This document shows positions 1,386 through 59,313 of a stretch of 64,000 nucleotides of DNA, one piece after another. Every line of letters begins with the position of its first letter. Position 1 is the stretch's first letter. Origin of the DNA: Planctomycetota bacterium (lineage in GTDB: Bacteria > Planctomycetota > Brocadiia > Brocadiales > Bathyanammoxibiaceae). The position numbers were made by a program, and so were the translations under genes. The stretch lies in the NCBI GenBank assembly GCA_016209685.1, contig JACQVQ010000005.1:150655-214654 (forward strand). Direction: 5' to 3'. The notes below the pieces were generated by a model. The model did not search any database, was not told where the DNA came from, and saw nothing but the letters and a program-made list of their open reading frames with translations.

Positions 1386-3341
1386 ATGCAAGAGCCGTTT
1401 GAGAGGATGGTACTATTAAACCCCGGCCCGGTGGTGGTATCGGAGAAGGTCAGGAAGGCCCTCCTTCGGGGAGATATCTGTCACAGGGAGGAAGAGTTCT
1501 CCCGCATCCTTAAGAGGGTAAGGCAGATGCTCCTTGCGGCCTTTACGCCTGGAGGGGGGTACACCTCGGCGATACTTACGGGTTCCGGCACTGCCGCCAT
1601 GGAGTCCTCTATAGCCTCCTCCGTTGGGGAAGGTAAGGCCATCCTGATAATCAACAACGGTGTCTATGGCGAGAGGTTCTCCCGTATGGCCTCCATCTAC
1701 GGCCACCGCAAGTTTGAGCTAGTCTACGACTGGAGGAAGTTGCCAGACCCTGGCGACATTGAAAAGGCCCTCAGAGAGCACCCGGAGATACAGGTAGTAG
1801 CCCTTGTGCACCATGAGACCTCTACGGGCCTGATTAACCCCGTGAGGGAGATTGGCAAGATAGCCAAGAAATACGGGAAGGTCTTCCTGCTGGACTCCAT
1901 AAGCGGCCTCGGGGGAGAGGAGTTAGACCTGGAAGGATGTAACGTAGACCTCTGCGTCGGCTCGGCCAACAAATGTATACAGGGGCTCCCGGGCCTTTCC
2001 TTTGTATTGATTAAAAAAGAAGAGATGGAGAGGCTAAAGAAGATACCCCCCCGTTCCATGTACCTCCATATACCTACCCTCTGGGAGAGTCAGGAAAAGG
2101 GCACCGTCCCCTTTACCCCGTCTATCCCGATATTTTATGCCCTGGAGGCGGCCCTGGAGGAACTCCTGGAAGAAGGAGTCCAGGGCAGGATTGCCCGCTA
2201 CAGGAAGGCCGCCGAGATCCTGCGTAGCGGCTTCAGAGAGATGGGCCTCAAGCCCTATCTGCCTGAGAAGTTACTATCCAATACCATCACGACCCTTTAT
2301 CTCCCCACCGGGTTTGACTATCAGACCCTCCATGACGGGTTAAAGGAGAGTAGGTTTGTAATTTATGCCGGACAGGAACGCCTCAAGGGAGAAATCTTCA
2401 GGGTGGCCAACATGGGGGAACTTACCAGGAAGGACCTGGAAGGCTTCCTGGGCTGTCTAAGGAAGATAGTCTCCCGCCCCTCTGCCTCAAGTAAGGCCGG
2501 GAGGTCTACGGTACGTGCCATAATCCTTGCGGCAGGGGTAGGTAAGAGGCTCATGCCCATTACGGGCCAGAGGCCCAAATGCCTGATAGAAATCGGCGGG
2601 AAGACCTTGCTGGATAGATACCTGGAATCCCTGAAAGAATCTTCCATCACAGAGGTCACCTTTGTACTGGGCCACCTGAAGGAAATGATACTCCCAAGGC
2701 TCAAGGAGGCAGAAAATACGTTTAAGACCCACTACATATACAATGAAAATTACACGAGGGGCAGTATCACCTCCCTCTGGGAGGCCAGGGAAAGACTCCA
2801 GGGCGACGTCCTCATTATGGACGCCGATGTACTATTCCACCCCACCCTTTTAAAAAGACTGCTTGAGTCCCCTAAAAAGAGTTGTTTCCTGCTGGAGGAG
2901 GACTTCACGGATACGGGAGAGGAGATGAAGCTCTTCGTCCAGGGGGAGCGGGTAGCGGCCATCTCTAAGAATGCGGAATTCGGAATTCAGAATGCGGAAT
3001 CCCGCACTCGGCAATCCGCACTCCGCAATCCGCACTCCGCAATCCGCACTTTAATTGGAGAGGGGGTAGGGTTCCTGAAGCTAGCCGGGGAGTATTGCCC
3101 TCAGCTTAGAAATACCCTGGAGGATTTTATTCGGGAAGGAAGGCTGGACGCAGAATATGAGGAGGCCCTGGACAGGCTGTTATCCTGCTGTGAGGTGGGC
3201 TACGAACCCGTAGACGGCCTCCCCTGGATAGAGATAGACTTTGAGGAAGACATACAGAGGGCAGAGAAGGATATACTGCCGATGTTAGACGGCAACAAGG
3301 GTGAACTGAGCCACAAAAAGGGATTGAAAGGACGCCCATGA
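1386..3341 (+). CDS. Fused 2-aminoethylphosphonate-pyruvate transaminase / phosphonate nucleotidyltransferase (PntC-like)
   Basis: N-terminus LLNPGPVVVSEKV with PLP-lysine context SANKCIQGLPG; C-terminus VRAIILAAGVGKRLMPITGQRPKCLIEIGGKTLLDR (NTP-transferase signature). Confidence 0.82.
   Translation: MQEPFERMVLLNPGPVVVSEKVRKALLRGDICHREEEFSRILKRVRQMLLAAFTPGGGYTSAILTGSGTAAMESSIASSVGEGKAILIINNGVYGERFSRMASIYGHRKFELVYDWRKLPDPGDIEKALREHPEIQVVALVHHETSTGLINPVREIGKIAKKYGKVFLLDSISGLGGEELDLEGCNVDLCVGSANKCIQGLPGLSFVLIKKEEMERLKKIPPRSMYLHIPTLWESQEKGTVPFTPSIPIFYALEAALEELLEEGVQGRIARYRKAAEILRSGFREMGLKPYLPEKLLSNTITTLYLPTGFDYQTLHDGLKESRFVIYAGQERLKGEIFRVANMGELTRKDLEGFLGCLRKIVSRPSASSKAGRSTVRAIILAAGVGKRLMPITGQRPKCLIEIGGKTLLDRYLESLKESSITEVTFVLGHLKEMILPRLKEAENTFKTHYIYNENYTRGSITSLWEARERLQGDVLIMDADVLFHPTLLKRLLESPKKSCFLLEEDFTDTGEEMKLFVQGERVAAISKNAEFGIQNAESRTRQSALRNPHSAIRTLIGEGVGFLKLAGEYCPQLRNTLEDFIREGRLDAEYEEALDRLLSCCEVGYEPVDGLPWIEIDFEEDIQRAEKDILPMLDGNKGELSHKKGLKGRP
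2968..3051. repeat. Family D (CGGAATNCGCAATCCGCA) array in-frame in AEPT-PntC
   Basis: 27-codon insert NAEFGIQNAESRTRQSALRNPHSAIRT. Confidence 0.92.
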
Positions 3342-19585: not shown

Positions 19586-21187
19586 TTACGGCCTATTGGA
19601 GACAAGGACAAAAGAAGGGGGGCCTTTCTCCCTGGGATTGGGAATTTCGGCCACCTTGTAGACCGATGCCCCTAACCCCCTGTAATCTGCCTCACCCAGG
19701 AGGCAATAGACCTTCTCCCTGGAGGAGAGAAGGGCCGTGAACTGCTCTTCCATGTATATACTACCTGGAAAGGTGTGGGTGTAATAGGTAAATGAGGGAC
19801 GATAATACTTATACACGGCCCACTTAGCCCCTGGTTCCATAATACCTAGTAGCTTCTGACATAAGGGCCTGTCAGAATTGGCGTTGTTCTGTAACGGCAG
19901 GAGAAACTGGCAATAAATCGCTTGATAGACGGACAGGACGAGCAAGATGACCCCAAAGAGGAGCTTCACCTGCGAGGCCCTGTAAGCCAGGTATACGGCT
20001 ATCAGCATACCTGCAACGACTAGAGAGAGGCCCAGGGCGGGATAGGGGAGCCGTCCCCCTTCAAACAAGGCCACCGCCACACCCGTCAAGGCGGCGATTA
20101 CAAGGACAGGCAGGCACTTTTGCCAGGACCATAAAGGAGGGCTCTTTGCCCAGTAGCCCTCCCACATCTGGGCCACCATCAGTGCCCCCGCCGGATAAAT
20201 GAACAAGATATATCTGCCGTGCTTGGTGCTAAGGAGACTAAATGCAATAAGGCCGACCAGTAACCAGAGAACAGGCAACGGGGATAAAGGTTTTCCTATT
20301 CCCTGTCCCCTGTCCCCTGTCCCCTGTTCCCTGTCTCTTGTCTCCTTATAGTATGAGTACAGGACCAGTGGTATAAAGATAGACCAGGGGGCCATGCTGA
20401 CCAGGAATTGGGGGAGATAGAAGTAGAAACTCTCAACGTGGTATTCCTCCTCCTTCAGGTACCATACCCCCCAGTTAAACAGGCCATTGAGGTAAGGCCC
20501 TGCCTTAAAATAAACAGGGACTAGCCAGAGGCATATAGTGCCAAAGAACACCAAGGCTCCCAGGAGAGGGAGGGTCTCCTTCAAGCGGTGTAACTCTTTT
20601 CTGAAGACCATGTAAGAGGACAGGGTAAGGACAATAATAAGTGGATAGACGGGCCCTTTTACCAGGCAGGAGAGGGCGGCAGAAAACCAGCCCAATAGAA
20701 ATAACCACCTCCTGGAGGTAGCAAGCCCTATATAGAAGCTGGCCAGGCTCAGGGTAAAAAAGAAGGCCACTGGCACGTCTATCCTTACCATGCAAGCAGA
20801 CCTGAAGAACCCAGGGGAGCTCAGGAGTATCAGGGCGGCCAGGAGTCCCGCCCGTTCGTTCAGCAGGGCCTTGCCCAGGAAGTACACTACGATTACCGTG
20901 CCCAGTGCGGCAAGGGCTGAAGGGAGGCGGGCGGTAAATTCCGTAACATCTCCGACAGGCAGACTGGCCAGGGCCATAAGCCAAAAGTACAGGGGGGGCT
21001 TTTCATTGTAGAGACCGCCATTGAAGTGGGGTACTAACCACCCCCAAGAGGTGGAGTGGAGGGCCTCTCTGGCCACCTGGGCATATTCCGTCTCTACGGT
21101 GCCCCAGAGGTCTCTGTTCCCCAATGCAGGCAGATAAAGGACAAGGCATAGGGAGGATAACAGCAGTACCCGGTGACTATCTCTCAT
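19586..21187 (-). CDS. ArnT/PMT-like glycosyltransferase (GT83), paralog 4
   Basis: GNRDLWGTVETEYAQVAREAL, KPPLYFWLMALAS. Confidence 0.82.
   Translation of the reverse strand: MRDSHRVLLLSSLCLVLYLPALGNRDLWGTVETEYAQVAREALHSTSWGWLVPHFNGGLYNEKPPLYFWLMALASLPVGDVTEFTARLPSALAALGTVIVVYFLGKALLNERAGLLAALILLSSPGFFRSACMVRIDVPVAFFFTLSLASFYIGLATSRRWLFLLGWFSAALSCLVKGPVYPLIIVLTLSSYMVFRKELHRLKETLPLLGALVFFGTICLWLVPVYFKAGPYLNGLFNWGVWYLKEEEYHVESFYFYLPQFLVSMAPWSIFIPLVLYSYYKETRDREQGTGDRGQGIGKPLSPLPVLWLLVGLIAFSLLSTKHGRYILFIYPAGALMVAQMWEGYWAKSPPLWSWQKCLPVLVIAALTGVAVALFEGGRLPYPALGLSLVVAGMLIAVYLAYRASQVKLLFGVILLVLSVYQAIYCQFLLPLQNNANSDRPLCQKLLGIMEPGAKWAVYKYYRPSFTYYTHTFPGSIYMEEQFTALLSSREKVYCLLGEADYRGLGASVYKVAEIPNPREKGPPSFVLVSNRP
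20297..20346. repeat. CCCTGTC heptamer array in-frame in GT83 paralog 4
   Basis: ttccctgtcccctgtcccctgtcccctgttccctgtctcttgtctcc; reads ETRDREQGTGDRGQGIG. Confidence 0.9.
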
Positions 21188-32263: not shown

Positions 32264-33547
32264 TTATTTTTGGGTCTTCTCCAATCCACCCAGAGTGGAC
32301 ACCCTCTCCTCCACGAAGGCGTACCATGGGCTATTTCTGGAGAAGGGGAGGTCCTTGTAACCCTCCAGTTCTGCCCCCATTGAGAAGAGGGTCAGCCCGG
32401 CCAGGGAGAGTTTTCTCTCGGGCAGGTCTTGATGCCTTTCCTTTATTACAACCTTTTTTAGGACCTTCTGTAATTCTACAGCCTTTTTGTTTATGGCTGG
32501 GTTATCTCTGAACTTTAGTCTCAGGGCATTCAGAAAACTACCCAGGTCGTAATGCATACTGTAAGGGATGTAGCGTCCGGCGATATGGGCACTGACGGTA
32601 AAAGAATCTGTGAGCATATCCACTTCTTTAAACCTCTTCACGGCCTGAGGCGATCCGCCGAAGGCGGACTTTAAAGTTAGGGCCAACTCCCCCAGTGGTG
32701 GCATTATTTCCGTAAAGGCCGCCAGGTCTATCACGGCTACGGTCAGTATATTGTCCAGCCTGGCAGGGGAGTACGAGGTAGTGTCTATGTAGGCGTCGGC
32801 TATGCGGGAGGCGATGTGGGGTGCGGGCATGGAAGGGTCTTCCATGAAGGCCATGAGGACGTCTCCGTAGGGCCAGCCGTCCAGGGCCTCCTCGTTCTCG
32901 GAGGCTATGACGTAACTGGCATAGTCCTTGATGGAAAACAAGACCTCCACCATGGCCAGGTAGCAGGCGTCCAGCCCCAGGATGTCAATCTTGTCCTTAC
33001 CATTAACCTTCTTTATTGCCCTGACGATACTGCCGAGGGCCTCTTCCAGTTCCGGGAGGCTCAAGACGTCCACTATCCCCTGTCCATCATTTAAGTCATG
33101 AAGCATACCCATCCATCCCTCGCCGTACCCACCGAGGAGCAGGAGGTAATTCTGGGCAGGCAGGTTCTCCACGGCCCATGTGGCAAAGGTGATTAGGGTC
33201 TGGGGGGCGCCTGTATTTAGTTCCTTACCCCTCCAGGAGGGGTCTATATCCTCTACGGGTAGTTCCAGCAGGTAGCCGTTTCTGACCTCGTAGAGATGTC
33301 CTCCCTTATCCAGCTTATCTACCAGGACTACCGTGCGGACGTCATAGCTTGCCGTGCCATGGCCCTCCCTGAGTTCTTCCAGGTTCTGCTGTGTGAACCA
33401 GTCCAGGAAGTTATCTCCGGCAAGGTATACTATGCAGGTCCATTTTGGAAGGGTCTTTATCTCCTGCCCGTGGCAATAGGCAGTAGGCAACAGGCAGTAG
33501 GCAGTAGACAGTAAGCAAAAAATGGCCTGCGGCGCAAATCTTCTCAT
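32264..33547 (-). CDS. Clostripain-like (C11) cysteine peptidase, secreted
   Basis: WTCIVYLAGDNFLDWF, ILGLDACYLAMVEVLFSIKDYASYVIASE; repeat-encoded signal peptide. Confidence 0.78.
   Translation of the reverse strand: MRRFAPQAIFCLLSTAYCLLPTAYCHGQEIKTLPKWTCIVYLAGDNFLDWFTQQNLEELREGHGTASYDVRTVVLVDKLDKGGHLYEVRNGYLLELPVEDIDPSWRGKELNTGAPQTLITFATWAVENLPAQNYLLLLGGYGEGWMGMLHDLNDGQGIVDVLSLPELEEALGSIVRAIKKVNGKDKIDILGLDACYLAMVEVLFSIKDYASYVIASENEEALDGWPYGDVLMAFMEDPSMPAPHIASRIADAYIDTTSYSPARLDNILTVAVIDLAAFTEIMPPLGELALTLKSAFGGSPQAVKRFKEVDMLTDSFTVSAHIAGRYIPYSMHYDLGSFLNALRLKFRDNPAINKKAVELQKVLKKVVIKERHQDLPERKLSLAGLTLFSMGAELEGYKDLPFSRNSPWYAFVEERVSTLGGLEKTQK
33474..33516. repeat. GGCAGTA heptamer array encoding the C11 peptidase signal-peptide core
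   Basis: aataggcagtaggcaacaggcagtaggcagtagacagtaagc; reads LLSTAYCLLPTAYC. Confidence 0.88.
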
Positions 33548-33567
33548 ATATTTCTACCCCCTACCCC

Positions 33568-33620
33568 CTGCACCACGTAGGGTGCATGGCAGGCCGTGAA
33601 CCCCACGTGGTTCACGGCCT
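33568..33620. repeat. Family K double palindrome
   Basis: tgcaccacgtagggtgca ... aggccgtgaaccccacgtggttcacggcct. Confidence 0.85.
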
Positions 33621-34080
33621 ACCCCCTTTCCTTCTCCTCCTCAAGGAGGGTAGACTCTAGCGATTGGATCTTTCCCGCCAATTCGTTTATCAGTTCGTGG
33701 ACCCTTGCAATCTTTATAACTAGTTCATCTGCCTGTCTTAACCTATTGGCCAGGGCCTTCATTACTATGAGGACGCATGAGGGGATGTTGGCAAAACACT
33801 GGTCGCAGTGTTTTCTGTCCAGGGCCATCACCGTGGAGTCGGTAGTGGCACGGGCGGTGGCACTCCTCGTGCCGCCTCCTATTACGGCCACCTCTCCCAG
33901 GAACTCCCCTTGTATCAACTCCCCTAACTTTATGTTTCTATTCAGTATCCTCTTGGTTACACTGAGCCTCCCACTCTCTAAGTAGAACATCTCGTTAGCA
34001 GGGGTACCCTCGTAGAAGAGTATATCTCCCTTCTTCAGGGAGTGGGTCTTCGTGACTTTGCACGTAGGTGATAGGGGCAT
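33619..34080 (-). CDS. Cyclic nucleotide-binding domain protein (CRP/FNR-like sensor domain)
   Basis: LKKGDILFYEGTPANEMFYLESGRLSVTK...GEFLGEVAVIGGGTRSATARATTDSTVMAL. Confidence 0.75.
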   Translation of the reverse strand: MPLSPTCKVTKTHSLKKGDILFYEGTPANEMFYLESGRLSVTKRILNRNIKLGELIQGEFLGEVAVIGGGTRSATARATTDSTVMALDRKHCDQCFANIPSCVLIVMKALANRLRQADELVIKIARVHELINELAGKIQSLESTLLEEEKERG

Positions 34081-34204
34081 GCTTCTTTCCTCCTATTTGT
34101 CTCCGTAGACTGATTAGGGGTTAGGGGCCAGGGGGCAGGGACTAGAATTCAGAATACAGAATTCAGAATTCAGAATATTTTGTATTCTGTATCCTTTCTT
34201 CTCC

Positions 34205-35710
34205 CTACTCTATGCTCTTCAGTTCAATAGTCTTGACCTCTCCAAACTCGCTGAGGGGGCGGTCAAACTTGTCTTTATTCCCTACCACCAGGAGGGTGAC
34301 GTTATCGGGCTGGAGATATTTCCCGGCCACTCTTAATATGTCTTCCCTGGTGACGGCATTTACCTTAGCTACGTATGTGTCCAGGTAGTCAAGGGGGAGA
34401 CCTTGATACTCTATGTTTACCATGTGAGATGCGATGGCCGAACTGGAGGTAAAAAGGAAGACAAATTGGTTGGTAAAGGTATCCTTGGCAGTGGCCAGTT
34501 CGTCCTCCTCTACGGGCTTCTCTTTTATCTTCCGGATTTCCTCCAGGGTCAGGGATATGGCCCTGCTGGTGGATTCGGACTTGGTCTGACAGCTTACGAA
34601 AAAGAACCCCTTGTCTCTTGGGGTATGGAAGGCGCTGTAGACGCTGTAGGCCAGGCCCTCGTCACTCCTTACCTTTCCAGGGATCCTGGAGGCGAAGCTT
34701 CCCCCCCCAAGGATGAAGTTCATGAGCATGGCGGGAAAGTAGTCAGGGTTGGTCCTCTCTATGGCCACATGGCCGAGGACGACGTTAGACTGGTCAATGT
34801 CCTTGTATATGTAATTTATGGACTTATTAAATCCTTCTTTGACGTTCGGGACGGCAGGGAATGAGACCTCGGCCCTGGGCCAGTCCTTAAAGAGTTTCTC
34901 TAACTTCTCCAGCATCTCCTGGGTATTAAAGTCTCCAGCCACCCCCATCAGGACGTTGTTGGGGTGAAAGTACCTCTTGTGGAACTCTACCATGTCCTCC
35001 CTGGTTATCCTGCCCAGGGTATCGGGGTATCCCTCTACCTTCCTTCCGTAAGGATGAGGCTCGTAGATGAGCTTCCTGAACTCCCTGAACACGATACCGC
35101 CAGGGCTATCGTTCTCCCTCCGTATGCCCTCCAGTACCTCTTCCTTTCTCTTCTTTATCTTGTCTTCAGGGAAGTTAGGGTTCCTGAGGACGTCGGCGAA
35201 TATCTCCAGTGCCTTGTCCAGGTCCTTCTTCATGGTAGAAAGGCCGGCAGTACCCTCCTCTCTCCCTATGGCCGTCTCCACCGAGGCGGCCATGTATTCC
35301 AGCTCCTCATTAATCTTCTCTACACTGCGGGTGGTAGTCCCACCTGAGCGCATGACGTGGCCCGTCAGGGAGGCCAGCCCCGCCTTTTCTGCAGGTTCAT
35401 AGATGGCACCAGTCCTGATGGTGGACGTAATGTTTACGATGGGGAGGTCGTGGTCTTCAAGGAGGTACAACACCATGCCGTTAGAGAGTACCTTCCGTTG
35501 TGCCTTTGGTGGCGTAAACTCCAGGGGGTTGAAGTGTAGTTTAGAGACTATCTGTGCCCCTGGAGACTGAGGCTTTACGAAAGGCGACTCCTCTGCGGGG
35601 CGCCCGTGCTGGGCGTAGAGCGGGGCGGTAAGCAGTAGGCAGTAGGCAGTAAGCAGTAGGAAGGTAGCCGCAGGCTTTAGCCTGCGTGTAGGTAGTAAAA
35701 ATCTTTTCAT
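34205..35710 (-). CDS. M16-family peptidase, non-catalytic partner
   Basis: M16 fold motifs but no HxxEH (LASLTGHVMRSGGT); paired with active M16; repeat-encoded signal peptide. Confidence 0.8.
   Translation of the reverse strand: MKRFLLPTRRLKPAATFLLLTAYCLLLTAPLYAQHGRPAEESPFVKPQSPGAQIVSKLHFNPLEFTPPKAQRKVLSNGMVLYLLEDHDLPIVNITSTIRTGAIYEPAEKAGLASLTGHVMRSGGTTTRSVEKINEELEYMAASVETAIGREEGTAGLSTMKKDLDKALEIFADVLRNPNFPEDKIKKRKEEVLEGIRRENDSPGGIVFREFRKLIYEPHPYGRKVEGYPDTLGRITREDMVEFHKRYFHPNNVLMGVAGDFNTQEMLEKLEKLFKDWPRAEVSFPAVPNVKEGFNKSINYIYKDIDQSNVVLGHVAIERTNPDYFPAMLMNFILGGGSFASRIPGKVRSDEGLAYSVYSAFHTPRDKGFFFVSCQTKSESTSRAISLTLEEIRKIKEKPVEEDELATAKDTFTNQFVFLFTSSSAIASHMVNIEYQGLPLDYLDTYVAKVNAVTREDILRVAGKYLQPDNVTLLVVGNKDKFDRPLSEFGEVKTIELKSIE
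35629..35687. repeat. GGCAGTA array plus family F palindrome encoding the M16 signal peptide
   Basis: gtaagcagtaggcagtaggcagtaagcagtagg ... gcaggctttagcctgc. Confidence 0.85.
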
Positions 35711-35744
35711 GTCCCTTTTCTCCTTGTTTCTCAGTCCTTACTCC

Positions 35745-37382
35745 CTACTGTTTACTGCCTTCTTTAGCCTCTTCTTTTGCCACCTTGACCAGCGTGGCCA
35801 CGGTGCGGTTAGTCTTGGTTAAATACTTCCTGGCCACGCGCATAACGTCCTCAGCAGTAACGGCCTTAATCTTTTCAAGGGCGATATTTATATATTCCCA
35901 GCCGGCAATGGATTCATAGTAACCGATTTCATCTGCAAGGCCGTTGTTGGAATCCAGCCCGCGAATGAAGCCGGCCTCCAGTTGGTTTTTTATCTTTTCC
36001 AGTTCCCATTGGGAAGGAGGTTCCTTCTTCAATTTTTCTATTTCTTCGTATATGACCTGCTCCACCTCCTCGGCGGTGTGGGGGTGTCTGGGGGTCACAA
36101 AGACATAGAAGGTGTCCGGGTATCTGGAGGCCCCGGCATAGGACCTGACCATAACGGCCATCCTCTTCTCTTCTATGAGGGTCTTGTATAGTCTTGCCGT
36201 ACGTCCACTGGAAAGGAGTGACTCTACGACCTCAAGGGCATACTGGTCAGGGTGGGTTACCTGAGGTTTGTGATAAGCTATGGCCACGTTGGGGTTGGCG
36301 TCATATTCTACGTATACTCTCCTCTCACCCCTCTGCTCCGGCTCCACTGTCTCCACCTCTGGTATGGGGGGTTGGGAGGGGATGTCGCTAAAATATTTTT
36401 CTACCAGTTTTATGAACTCTTGCGTCTGGAAGTCCCCAACGGCTATTAGTACGGCATTGTTAGGGGCATAGTATCTGGTGAAGTACTCCTTGGTCCCTTC
36501 CTTAGTAAGTGCGTTTATGTCGGACCTCCAGCCTATTACCGGCCAGCTGTAGGGGTGGGCAGTAAAGGTGGCCGCCCTGAGCTGTTCAAGGAGCAGCCCG
36601 AAGGGGCTGGTCTCAGTCCTCAGCCTCCTCTCCTCCATTACCACGTCCTTTTCCGAGTAGAACTCCCTCAAGACCATGTTCTTCATCCTGTCAGACTCAA
36701 TAAGGCCCCATAGCTCCAGCTTGTTGGTAGGGAGGTCGCAGTAATAAAAGGTGGCATCTTCCCCGGTAGAGGCATTTAACCCTGTGCCGCCATGGCTCAT
36801 GTATATGGACCATAATTCGTCTTTGACCGTTACGTCCTTTAACTTCTTCCTTACCTCCTCCAGCTCGGTCTCCAGGGCCTTAATCTTCCCCTGGTCTGCC
36901 GACGCCCCTTTGTGCCTCTCCCCCTCTACGGCCACCACCAGTTCGTCCTCTCTCTTCAGTAAGGGTTCTTCTATGCTCCAGTCCTTGGTGCCGAAGAGTT
37001 TCGTACCCTTGAACATCATGTGCTCAAAGAGGTGGGATACGCCGGTAATGCCAGGCCGTTCGTTCACGGAGCCTACCTTGTACACTATTCTCAGGGAGAC
37101 GGTGGGGGACTTGTGCCTCTCCAGGGTCAATACCTTCAGCCCGTTTTTCAGCACGTGCTCCTTTACGTCTAGCTTTAGCTCCTGGGCAAGGAGGGGTAGC
37201 GGTGGGACAAGTAAGAGGCAGAACAGTAGTGTACAGATTAGGAGTCTGCCGAGGAAGGATTTGTCACCCTGAGCAGGGCGAAGGGTCTCGTGCGGAGATT
37301 CTTCGCTTCGCTCAGAATGACGGCCGTAGAATTTATTACCCATAGCTTGCCTCCTCAAGGCCTTTCGTAAGGGCGTATGCAA
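35745..37382 (-). CDS. M16-family zinc peptidase (true start probably downstream of 37382)
   Basis: GVSHLFEHMMFKGT (HxxEH); N-terminal SERSEES stretch is repeat-derived. Confidence 0.85.
   Translation of the reverse strand: MHTPLRKALRRQAMGNKFYGRHSERSEESPHETLRPAQGDKSFLGRLLICTLLFCLLLVPPLPLLAQELKLDVKEHVLKNGLKVLTLERHKSPTVSLRIVYKVGSVNERPGITGVSHLFEHMMFKGTKLFGTKDWSIEEPLLKREDELVVAVEGERHKGASADQGKIKALETELEEVRKKLKDVTVKDELWSIYMSHGGTGLNASTGEDATFYYCDLPTNKLELWGLIESDRMKNMVLREFYSEKDVVMEERRLRTETSPFGLLLEQLRAATFTAHPYSWPVIGWRSDINALTKEGTKEYFTRYYAPNNAVLIAVGDFQTQEFIKLVEKYFSDIPSQPPIPEVETVEPEQRGERRVYVEYDANPNVAIAYHKPQVTHPDQYALEVVESLLSSGRTARLYKTLIEEKRMAVMVRSYAGASRYPDTFYVFVTPRHPHTAEEVEQVIYEEIEKLKKEPPSQWELEKIKNQLEAGFIRGLDSNNGLADEIGYYESIAGWEYINIALEKIKAVTAEDVMRVARKYLTKTNRTVATLVKVAKEEAKEGSKQ
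37262..37322. repeat. SERSEES-type repeat (gtcaccctgagc...cgctcagaatgac) in the 5' region of an M16 ORF
   Basis: Inverted repeat encoding HSERSEESPHETLRPAQGDKSF. Confidence 0.85.
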
Positions 37383-58342: not shown

Positions 58343-58528
58343 TCATGGTCTCTTTATCTCCGGTGGGCGGGGTAACCCCGCCCCTACGTTATAAATCCGC
58401 CAGGAGAAATGACAGCCCTCGCAGATCCATATCTGATACGAGCCGTTATCCTCCAGTAACTTTGCCACTAAACTTTTGCAACGGGGGCATTCTTCTGGCC
58501 GAACTTCTTTTGTCTCTCCCTCTCCCAT
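58343..58528 (-). CDS. Small zinc-ribbon protein with repeat-derived C-terminus
   Basis: CPRCKSLVAKLLEDNGSYQIWICEGCHFSW + VGAGLPRPPE. Confidence 0.5.
   Translation of the reverse strand: MGEGETKEVRPEECPRCKSLVAKLLEDNGSYQIWICEGCHFSWRIYNVGAGLPRPPEIKRP
58363..58387. repeat. Family A variant in-frame in zinc-ribbon ORF
   Basis: gtgggcggggtaaccccgcccctac. Confidence 0.85.
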
Positions 58529-59313
58529 TGGACCTCCTTAACTCTGGCGTTCATATCTAGCGGGGTGGATGAATGCCTCTCCGCTAGGGTGGCGTTGATT
58601 TCCTCTCTCATGTCGGGATGCTTGACCTTCAAATCTTCAACCCCTTCAATGGTATCTATGTTGGCCTTCTTCTCCCTCCTGGCCCGTCTCAAGAGCCAGG
58701 CGCTGACACCTCCGCCTGTACCGGCGGTTGCGAGGCCAATGGCCCAGGGAAGGATGTCATTGAACGTCCACTTGGCGATACCTTTCATCTGCTCTATGGC
58801 CTGAGGATAGGCCTGCATACCTATGGCCCCCTGCATACCTGCGTAGGCGAGATACTGGGCAGTGGAGGTCTCCGTGCTATCAATTCCCCTGCCTGCTATC
58901 CCGCTCACGGCCTTTGTCGTACCGTCCACTGTTCCGATTTCTCGCAGCACTTTATCTTCCAATCCCACTCTAACTATGCCCGCCACTGCATTGGCGTTGA
59001 TGTTGGTCAGGGCCTCGGGGTCCTTAGTGTTCTTTGCCGATTCGGTGGCGACGGTCTTTATGGCCTCCACCTTCGCCTGGGCAATGGGGACAGCCACCTC
59101 CTTCATGGCTGTTACCTTCTCCTTCTGTGCCTCAGCCACGGCCTTGACGGACTCAATAGAGATTTCCTTGCTGGCCTGTACCTGGTGTTCCTTTGGCCCC
59201 GGGGCCTGGACTATCGGGAAGGACATACAACCGCTGAGTAGTAGTAGTCCGCCTGAGGCGGATATGTATCTGCCCACAATTTGTAAAGACTTTTTCATAC
59301 GTTCCTCCTTCAC
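58468..59313 (-). CDS. Lipoprotein of phage-like module
   Basis: GGLLLLSGC lipobox; Ala/Lys/Glu-rich helical region. Confidence 0.55.
   Translation of the reverse strand: MKEERMKKSLQIVGRYISASGGLLLLSGCMSFPIVQAPGPKEHQVQASKEISIESVKAVAEAQKEKVTAMKEVAVPIAQAKVEAIKTVATESAKNTKDPEALTNINANAVAGIVRVGLEDKVLREIGTVDGTTKAVSGIAGRGIDSTETSTAQYLAYAGMQGAIGMQAYPQAIEQMKGIAKWTFNDILPWAIGLATAGTGGGVSAWLLRRARREKKANIDTIEGVEDLKVKHPDMREEINATLAERHSSTPLDMNARVKEVQWERERQKKFGQKNAPVAKV

Follow-up and report, generated by a model that had tools for sequence, protein, structure and literature searches.

The window analysed here is a stretch of 64,000 nucleotides (G000:C3:150655-214654) from a Planctomycetota genome of the anammox order Brocadiales (G000; 2.02 Mb in 14 contigs). 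It contains two peptidase genes whose N-terminal leaders are encoded by tandem arrays of a seven-nucleotide unit. The gene at 32264-33547, on the minus strand, encodes a C11 (clostripain-family) peptidase (PF03415, E 7e-37). Its leader, MRRFAPQAIFCLLSTAYCLLPTAYCHGQE, is coded by 33461-33547 of the minus strand. A GGCAGTA heptamer array of six units, with four mismatches, lies on the plus strand at 33472-33513, and its complement codes the leader core CLLSTAYCLLPTAYC, in frame, at about codons 11-25 of the gene. The gene at 34205-35710, also on the minus strand, encodes an M16 peptidase (PF00675/PF05193). Its leader, MKRFLLPTRRLKPAATFLLLTAYCLLLTAPLYAQ, is coded by 35609-35710 of the minus strand, with the ribosome-binding site AAGGAG upstream of the ATG. 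Here a five-unit GGCAGTA array with three mismatches occupies 35624-35658 of the plus strand, and its complement codes the core FLLLTAYCLLLTA. The same leader contains a repetitive extragenic palindromic (REP) element at 35664-35686 (plus strand), consisting of a family F palindrome and a GTAG tag, which gives the charged n-region RRLKPAAT; the palindrome itself, GCAGGCTTTAGCCTGC, occupies 35670-35685, inside the M16 gene. Because palindrome F supplies RRLKPAAT, the M16 leader is, judged from its sequence, mostly repeat-derived. A first-pass annotation of the window had assigned the C11 core to a GGCAGTA array and the M16 leader to such an array plus a family F palindrome, and both assignments were borne out.

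The heptamer unit has an unusual coding property. Any frame of (TACTGCC)n yields the same cyclic heptapeptide, LLPTAYC, without a stop, because 7 is coprime to 3, while any frame of the complement yields AVGSRQ followed by a stop. The hydrophobic stretch had been attributed to one frame of this DNA; it arises from each of the three frames of the TACTGCC strand. Two-unit near-matches number 28 in the window against 5.6 expected, a count reached by none of 100 shuffles, and genome-wide there are 56 matches to the real pattern against 0 for a reversed-pattern control. A census was taken over 837 kb of G000, comprising the window and 40 other stretches, many of them picked for carrying arrays. Tandem Repeats Finder reported 349 repeat loci in this sample, 264 of them with a period of 7n. 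Intergenic DNA, 22% of the bases, holds 197 of these 264, and gene interiors, 67% of the bases, hold 15; a further 28 lie at gene 3' ends and 24 are N-terminal. Across the genome, dispersed 7-bp tandem arrays number in the hundreds and are chiefly intergenic. Arrays of the TACTGCC family with at least three units were classified individually. Of 51 such arrays, 29 lie between genes. Another 11 are placed at gene 3' ends, oriented so that they carry the stop, and the last 11, found in 10 genes, are in the open orientation and always within the first 45 or so codons. No open-orientation TACTGCC array was found in a gene interior in the 837 kb sampled. The arrays in leaders are short, at 3-8 units, and degenerate, with 2-7 mismatches; arrays overall span 21-56 bp.

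Besides the C11 and M16 genes in the window, the first ten array-led genes include those for an OEP/TolC protein (L034:4375), a CxxCH cytochrome (L047:5602), a TPR protein (L099:10675), an S41 protein (L103:18997, TTG start), a TPR lipoprotein with LAGC (L106:8646, no clear ribosome-binding site), an S13 D-Ala-D-Ala carboxypeptidase (L111:5353), an FGE-type protein (L112:6691, TTG start) and a Peptidase_MA protein with TPR (L115:11231). Two more leaders, of a Memo/AMMECR1 protein (L103:15795-17597) and an unnamed exported protein (L049), were added to these. In all 12 genes the array lies at the N-terminus and the protein is of an exported type. By a crude Sec-type rule of hydropathy and charge, 8 of the 11 genes scored qualify; the cytochrome, the L099 protein and the FGE protein fall just below it in core hydropathy or n-region charge. 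Judged by eye, most of the genes have a canonical cleavage region or lipobox directly past the array, with c-regions such as LYA-Q, LHA-E, IYA-E, LWA-S and LAG-C. In the S41, Memo and L049 genes both arms of a hairpin are translated, the left arm as a polar DSRQ.. segment whose in-frame TAG has been altered. A start module common to the leaders, ATGARAAGAYTT, was considered and rejected; four gene starts match it, probably through convergence on MKR/MRR.

Where a heptamer is found in coding sequence follows the chemistry of the peptide it encodes. In-frame arrays with a mean hydropathy above +1 all belong to the TACTGCC family, and all are N-terminal in exported proteins. Heptamers with hydrophilic products (CCGCACT, ATTCCGC, CAGGGGT and others) occur in cytosolic proteins, in the interior or the N-terminal tail, examples being TruA, CoaBC, MutL, UvrC, a Mur ligase and PfkB. 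Where the gene of a cytosolic protein adjoins an array (pth, DnaE, a YdjC-like protein), the array stays outside the open reading frame (ORF). A motif-free test, requiring at least 18 of 21 matches at lag 7, gave the same picture. Among 191 signal-peptide-like N-termini 9 were periodic, compared with 3 among 381 other N-termini and 1 among 1144 interior stretches, an enrichment in the first class with Fisher probabilities of 0.004 and 2e-7. At lags of 5, 6, 8, 9 and 10 periodicity was essentially never seen.

Orthologs were compared in metagenome-assembled genomes (MAGs), of which G000, G001 and G002 represent one genus and G003-G008 fall in the same family. The strict array pattern RGCAGTARGCAGTA has 45 matches in G000, 23 in G001, 35 in G002 and 14 in G006, and none in G003, G004, G005, G007 or G008. 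For nine families (M16, C11, OEP, cytochrome, S41, S13, FGE, Peptidase_MA and L049), orthologs that lack the array carry an ordinary signal peptide in the corresponding position, and in several of these families conservation of the cleavage region extends to the very edge of the array. The M16 array is common to G000 and G002 and absent from the orthologs of G006, G005, G004, G003 and G008, which retain an LYAQHG-type or similar cleavage region; the leader starts MMKKGTWQVIVIALILSLAPHLYAQHG in array-free G005 and ..FLLLTAYCLLLTAPLYAQHG in G000 illustrate the difference. The OEP gene provides a matching pair, ..LFCLTILMPITLHAEGVEF in G006, a genome with fewer arrays, and ..LLHIVYCILPTTLHAEGVEF in G000. 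The C11 orthologs of G006, G005 and G004 have no array and ordinary leaders, while the C11 array sequence is identical between G000 and its congener G002. Array leaders are likewise common to species for the cytochrome (G000, G001) and to genera for Peptidase_MA and FGE (G000, G006). Since array leaders are found in several species and genera, they have persisted in frame over long times.

These comparisons indicate that, most likely, the signal peptides were there before the repeats. We infer that repeats replaced existing signals, because the array-free orthologs of nine families have ordinary signal peptides. The first-pass annotation had proposed that repeats could seed secretion signals, a proposal to be doubted if ortholog leaders were independent of the repeats and the array untranslated. 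Ortholog leaders are indeed independent of the repeats in the nine families, and the array is translated. What stands, from 12 genes in 837 kb and from cases in other phyla, is that leaders of exported proteins are built from dispersed repeats; the seeding of secretion does not.

The reading that we favour, with a probability of about 0.83, is that dispersed arrays overwrote existing signal peptides and took over their function, the h-region tolerating them. Arrays would reach gene starts by expansion, spill-over or copying. There, an array in the open orientation would yield a hydrophobic core in any frame, acceptable in coding sequence only within a signal peptide. The polymer of a Leu/Ala/Tyr/Cys heptapeptide would be tolerated in the h-region because selection on Sec signals acts on hydrophobicity and charge, not on sequence. 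The old core would then decay or be replaced, with the cleavage region remaining. Other modules would provide the n-region: in M16 the REP palindrome, giving RRLKPAAT; in three genes the other arm of the hairpin, giving DSRQ..; and in the Peptidase_MA/TPR gene, as in M16 of Nitrospinota, heptamers rich in A.

Other explanations account for parts of the evidence. The arrays might be contingency loci, kept since gain or loss of a 7-bp unit switches the expression of an exported protein by frameshift. Seven is not a multiple of three and the array can be read through in any frame, so that unit changes would toggle the downstream frame, as an unrelated repeat does in the opa leaders of Neisseria (PMC3960869). 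Slippage is disfavoured by arrays as short and degenerate as these, however; the C11 arrays of G000 and G002 are identical, and no out-of-frame allele was seen in the assemblies, which are consensus sequences. We therefore judge such switching unlikely. De novo creation of signal peptides by the repeats, by which cytosolic proteins became exported, is less probable again. In its favour, the arrays code a ready hydrophobic core in any frame, and the ortholog comparison covers 9 of the 12 genes, with the L099 and L106 TPR proteins and Memo outside it. In every one of the nine families compared, however, the signal peptide is already there in array-free orthologs, and most of the mature proteins are of obligately extracytoplasmic types.

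The leaders might also be artefacts of annotation, with the arrays forming untranslated 5' sequence and the true starts lying downstream, as the first-pass annotation had allowed. The open strand is free of stops, so any upstream start reads through the array, and arrays do abut the start codons of cytosolic genes (pth, dnaE, YdjC-like). For most of the genes this account fails. The first start codon past the array is codon 126 in C11 and codon 79 in M16, each within the conserved domain, and most of the other array-led genes have no start codon between the array and the mature protein. Without the array, moreover, exported proteins would be left signal-less while their orthologs have signals, and we consider the artefact very improbable. 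Chance resemblance of Leu/Ala-rich cores to heptamers is the least credible of these alternatives, close to negligible: the codons CTG, CTT and CTA are abundant in signal peptides, but the periodicity is confined to lag 7 and runs across codon positions, the unit occurs at high copy between genes, the cores repeatedly contain Tyr, Cys and Pro, and the reversed-pattern control found nothing.

Several points weigh against the overwriting of existing signals as we describe it. That array leaders act as signal peptides is deduced from hydropathy, cleavage regions and orthologs, and for array leaders the signal-peptide rule involves some circularity, of which the ortholog and Pfam evidence is free. 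Some n-regions are uncertain, given the TTG starts of S41 and FGE and the unclear ribosome-binding site of L106. In S41 of the congeners G001 and G002 the core is not an array, which points to turnover and leaves the order of events ambiguous. Array-enriched sampling means that the census frequencies are not genome averages, and its genes were called with a home-made hexamer-model caller that sets starts heuristically. At the DNA level the event may have been either insertion of an array or replacement by one.

Similar leaders occur in other phyla. A pattern scan of named genomes, requiring ATGA 25-55 nt before three units, found at least 13 Pfam-identified leader ORFs outside the genus; among the matches listed, 13 of 13 are exported or N-terminally membrane-anchored. 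The matches listed come from Nitrospirota, Nitrospinota, Bacteroidota and Deltaproteobacteria, and include OEP (2), cytochromes c, LptE, LptC, CcmH, PpiC, an HlyD-type protein, M16 (2), a carbonic anhydrase with a leader and ATP synthase b. The remaining open frames among them have no Pfam match, and some are probably spurious. Presence of the array is patchy, in 23 of 392 genomes sampled from the phylum. In four Nitrospinota M16 orthologs (L387-L390) the n-region comes from one heptamer family (AAAGTTC, AGTCAGA, AGACAGA or AATTTCA) and the h-region from another (TTACTGC, ACTATTC, TTCACTC or GCCTGTT); the families differ by species, and each leader half shows 18-21 of 21 lag-7 matches. By their sequences these leaders are convergent with the Brocadiales case. 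Heptamer conversion of signal peptides may thus be a general, recurrent route in heptamer-rich bacteria, in which chemistry-matched modules rebuild whole signal peptides independently in several phyla (Brocadiales, Nitrospinota M16), with Lys/Arg-coding A-rich heptamers or REPs for the n-region and TACTGCC-type heptamers for the h-region. We hold the chances of this broader proposal to be evenly balanced.

Abundant dispersed heptamer repeats are familiar from cyanobacteria as short tandemly repeated repetitive (STRR) sequences. In Beggiatoaceae, TAACTGA heptamers are plentiful between genes as 7-bp tandem arrays whose orientation follows rules imposed by stop codons, and it was suggested that a protein start or end might tolerate such arrays (PMC4679880). 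The open direction of TAACTGA has no tie to signal peptides, whereas the different unit described here codes a hydrophobic peptide in export leaders. The nearest precedent for the leaders is Yersinia YPO1552, in which an RU-2/YPAL element lies in the signal peptide and orthologs have unrelated signals (Delihas 2007, PMC2759123; reviewed in PMC2229807). There too a dispersed repeat forms part of a signal peptide, and the same relationship, with orthologs bearing unrelated signals, is found here in nine families. RU-2 is a 168-bp element resembling a miniature inverted-repeat transposable element (MITE), at one main locus; here the repeat is a 7-bp tandem unit, found in at least 12 genes of one genome, open in every frame and recurring independently in several phyla. 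The CTCTT repeat of Neisseria opa (PMC3960869) is similar in structure to the leader arrays, being a short tandem repeat with a unit that is not a multiple of three in the leader-coding region of an exported protein. It belongs to one gene family and drives phase variation, while the arrays here are degenerate, lie in unrelated genes and share a unit that is also dispersed between genes; phase variation by leader arrays would, on this analogy, be possible in principle.

The Rickettsia palindromic elements (RPEs), 105-146 bp long, occur in genes of many kinds (Ogata et al. 2000, via PMC2229807). Like the hydrophilic-coding heptamers here, they are dispersed hairpin-forming repeats kept in frame where the peptide is tolerated, and the passages of PMC2229807 that deal with them describe no preference for signal peptides. 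The leader arrays resemble RPEs in being tolerated in frame; they were considered as RPE members and set apart from them, since units are 7 bp, arrays 21-56 bp, and a complementary arm accompanies only 16 of 51. The peptide strings TAYCLL, LLTAYC and LLPTAYC drew no mention in the literature searched, which lay outside subscription sources. Heptamer arrays and in-frame repeats are thus already known (PMC4679880, PMC2229807), as is a repeat-derived signal peptide in one Yersinia gene (PMC2759123); these precedents are single cases or other repeat types. The apparent novelty lies in the scale, in a heptapeptide that does not depend on frame, in the chemistry rule and in convergence between phyla. 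The leaders offer a sequence-level case of signal-peptide turnover with function kept, an ordinary and a repeat leader standing at the same site in sister genera. They also suggest a rule, that coding repeats survive where the encoded chemistry fits the local constraint, by which hydrophobic-coding heptamers go to signal peptides and hydrophilic ones to loops and tails. For annotation, the lesson is that a low-complexity leader of the LLPTAYC kind is not contamination, and that the start assigned to it need not be wrong.

Palindrome F, GTAGCCGCAGGCTTTAGCCTGCG, is GTAG-tagged and has 58 near-copies in the genome; 19 of 22 copies are intergenic. Inverted copies flank a putative Y1-transposase ORF at G000:C9:115579-115887 (L356, G000:C9:115476-116088), which matches PF01797 at 24.2 bits against a cut-off of 23. 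Around two other Y1-transposase ORFs no palindrome F copies lie nearby. A high-copy palindrome with a GTAG start and a Y1 (HuH) gene between inverted copies are features of GTAG-tagged systems of REPs and REP-associated tyrosine transposases (RAYTs) (PMC2817692, PMC3733652), and a REP/RAYT system resident in this genome probably has palindrome F as its REP. Such elements are normally extragenic, whereas here one copy lies in frame within a signal peptide. The same composite of REP and array as in M16 also heads an FGE protein in G006. Family C is a different matter. The first-pass annotation had placed a family C palindrome in the leader of a putative lipoprotein (gene 58468-59313, minus strand), and the element is indeed there, at 59247-59263 of the plus strand, with the palindrome TCCGCCTCAGGCGGA at 59248-59262; it codes SASGG, not the hydrophobic core. 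Among 66 copies of the family (TCCGCCTSAGGCGGA) in the 837 kb, 31 are in coding sequence and 35 between genes, and with only 5 of the 66 N-terminal, family C was rejected as a leader element.

Some intergenic arrays are arms of strong hairpins of the form (RRCAGTA)n-loop-(TACTGYY)n. A complementary arm is present on the expected side for 16 of 51 arrays and for none on the other side or in controls, and three intergenic examples gave folding z-scores of -5 to -7. The M16 and C11 leaders, with one arm each, gave z-scores of about -0.3 to -0.5, no better than shuffles, and a special RNA structure in these leaders was rejected. Among arrays at gene 3' ends (L028-L030, L106, L108, L110, L113 and others in G000), the repeat often supplies the stop codon. 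The window also has two in-frame hydrophilic-coding arrays, at 2969-3050 (gene 1386-3341) and 20301-20346 (gene 19586-21187); they are RPE-like, and elsewhere in the genome similar insertions occur in TruA, UvrC, an MqnA-like protein, a Mur ligase and PfkB.

In G002, the DNA upstream of the M16 gene (L052:1-1399, G002:C336) shares 90% identity with G000:C10:49603-49749, a segment that comprises another gene's 3' end and its array and precedes a TPR lipoprotein gene. This 5' end may reflect a repeat-mediated rearrangement or a chimeric MAG or contig. Upstream of the M16 gene in the window is an M16 paralog (35745-37382, minus strand), and an oppositely oriented heptamer array at its 3' end (35739-35759, minus strand) provides its stop codon. 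Arms at 35644-35663, in the M16 leader array, and 35741-35760, in the paralog array, are 90% complementary over 20 nt, and the M16 start sits in the 77-nt loop between them; a translational-coupling hairpin is possible. The paralog has an N-terminal extension, RHSERSEESPHETLRPAQGDKS, followed by an ordinary hydrophobic core. This extension is a peptide typical of another dispersed repeat, and in the G002 ortholog (L122) a TACTGCC-array leader takes its place.

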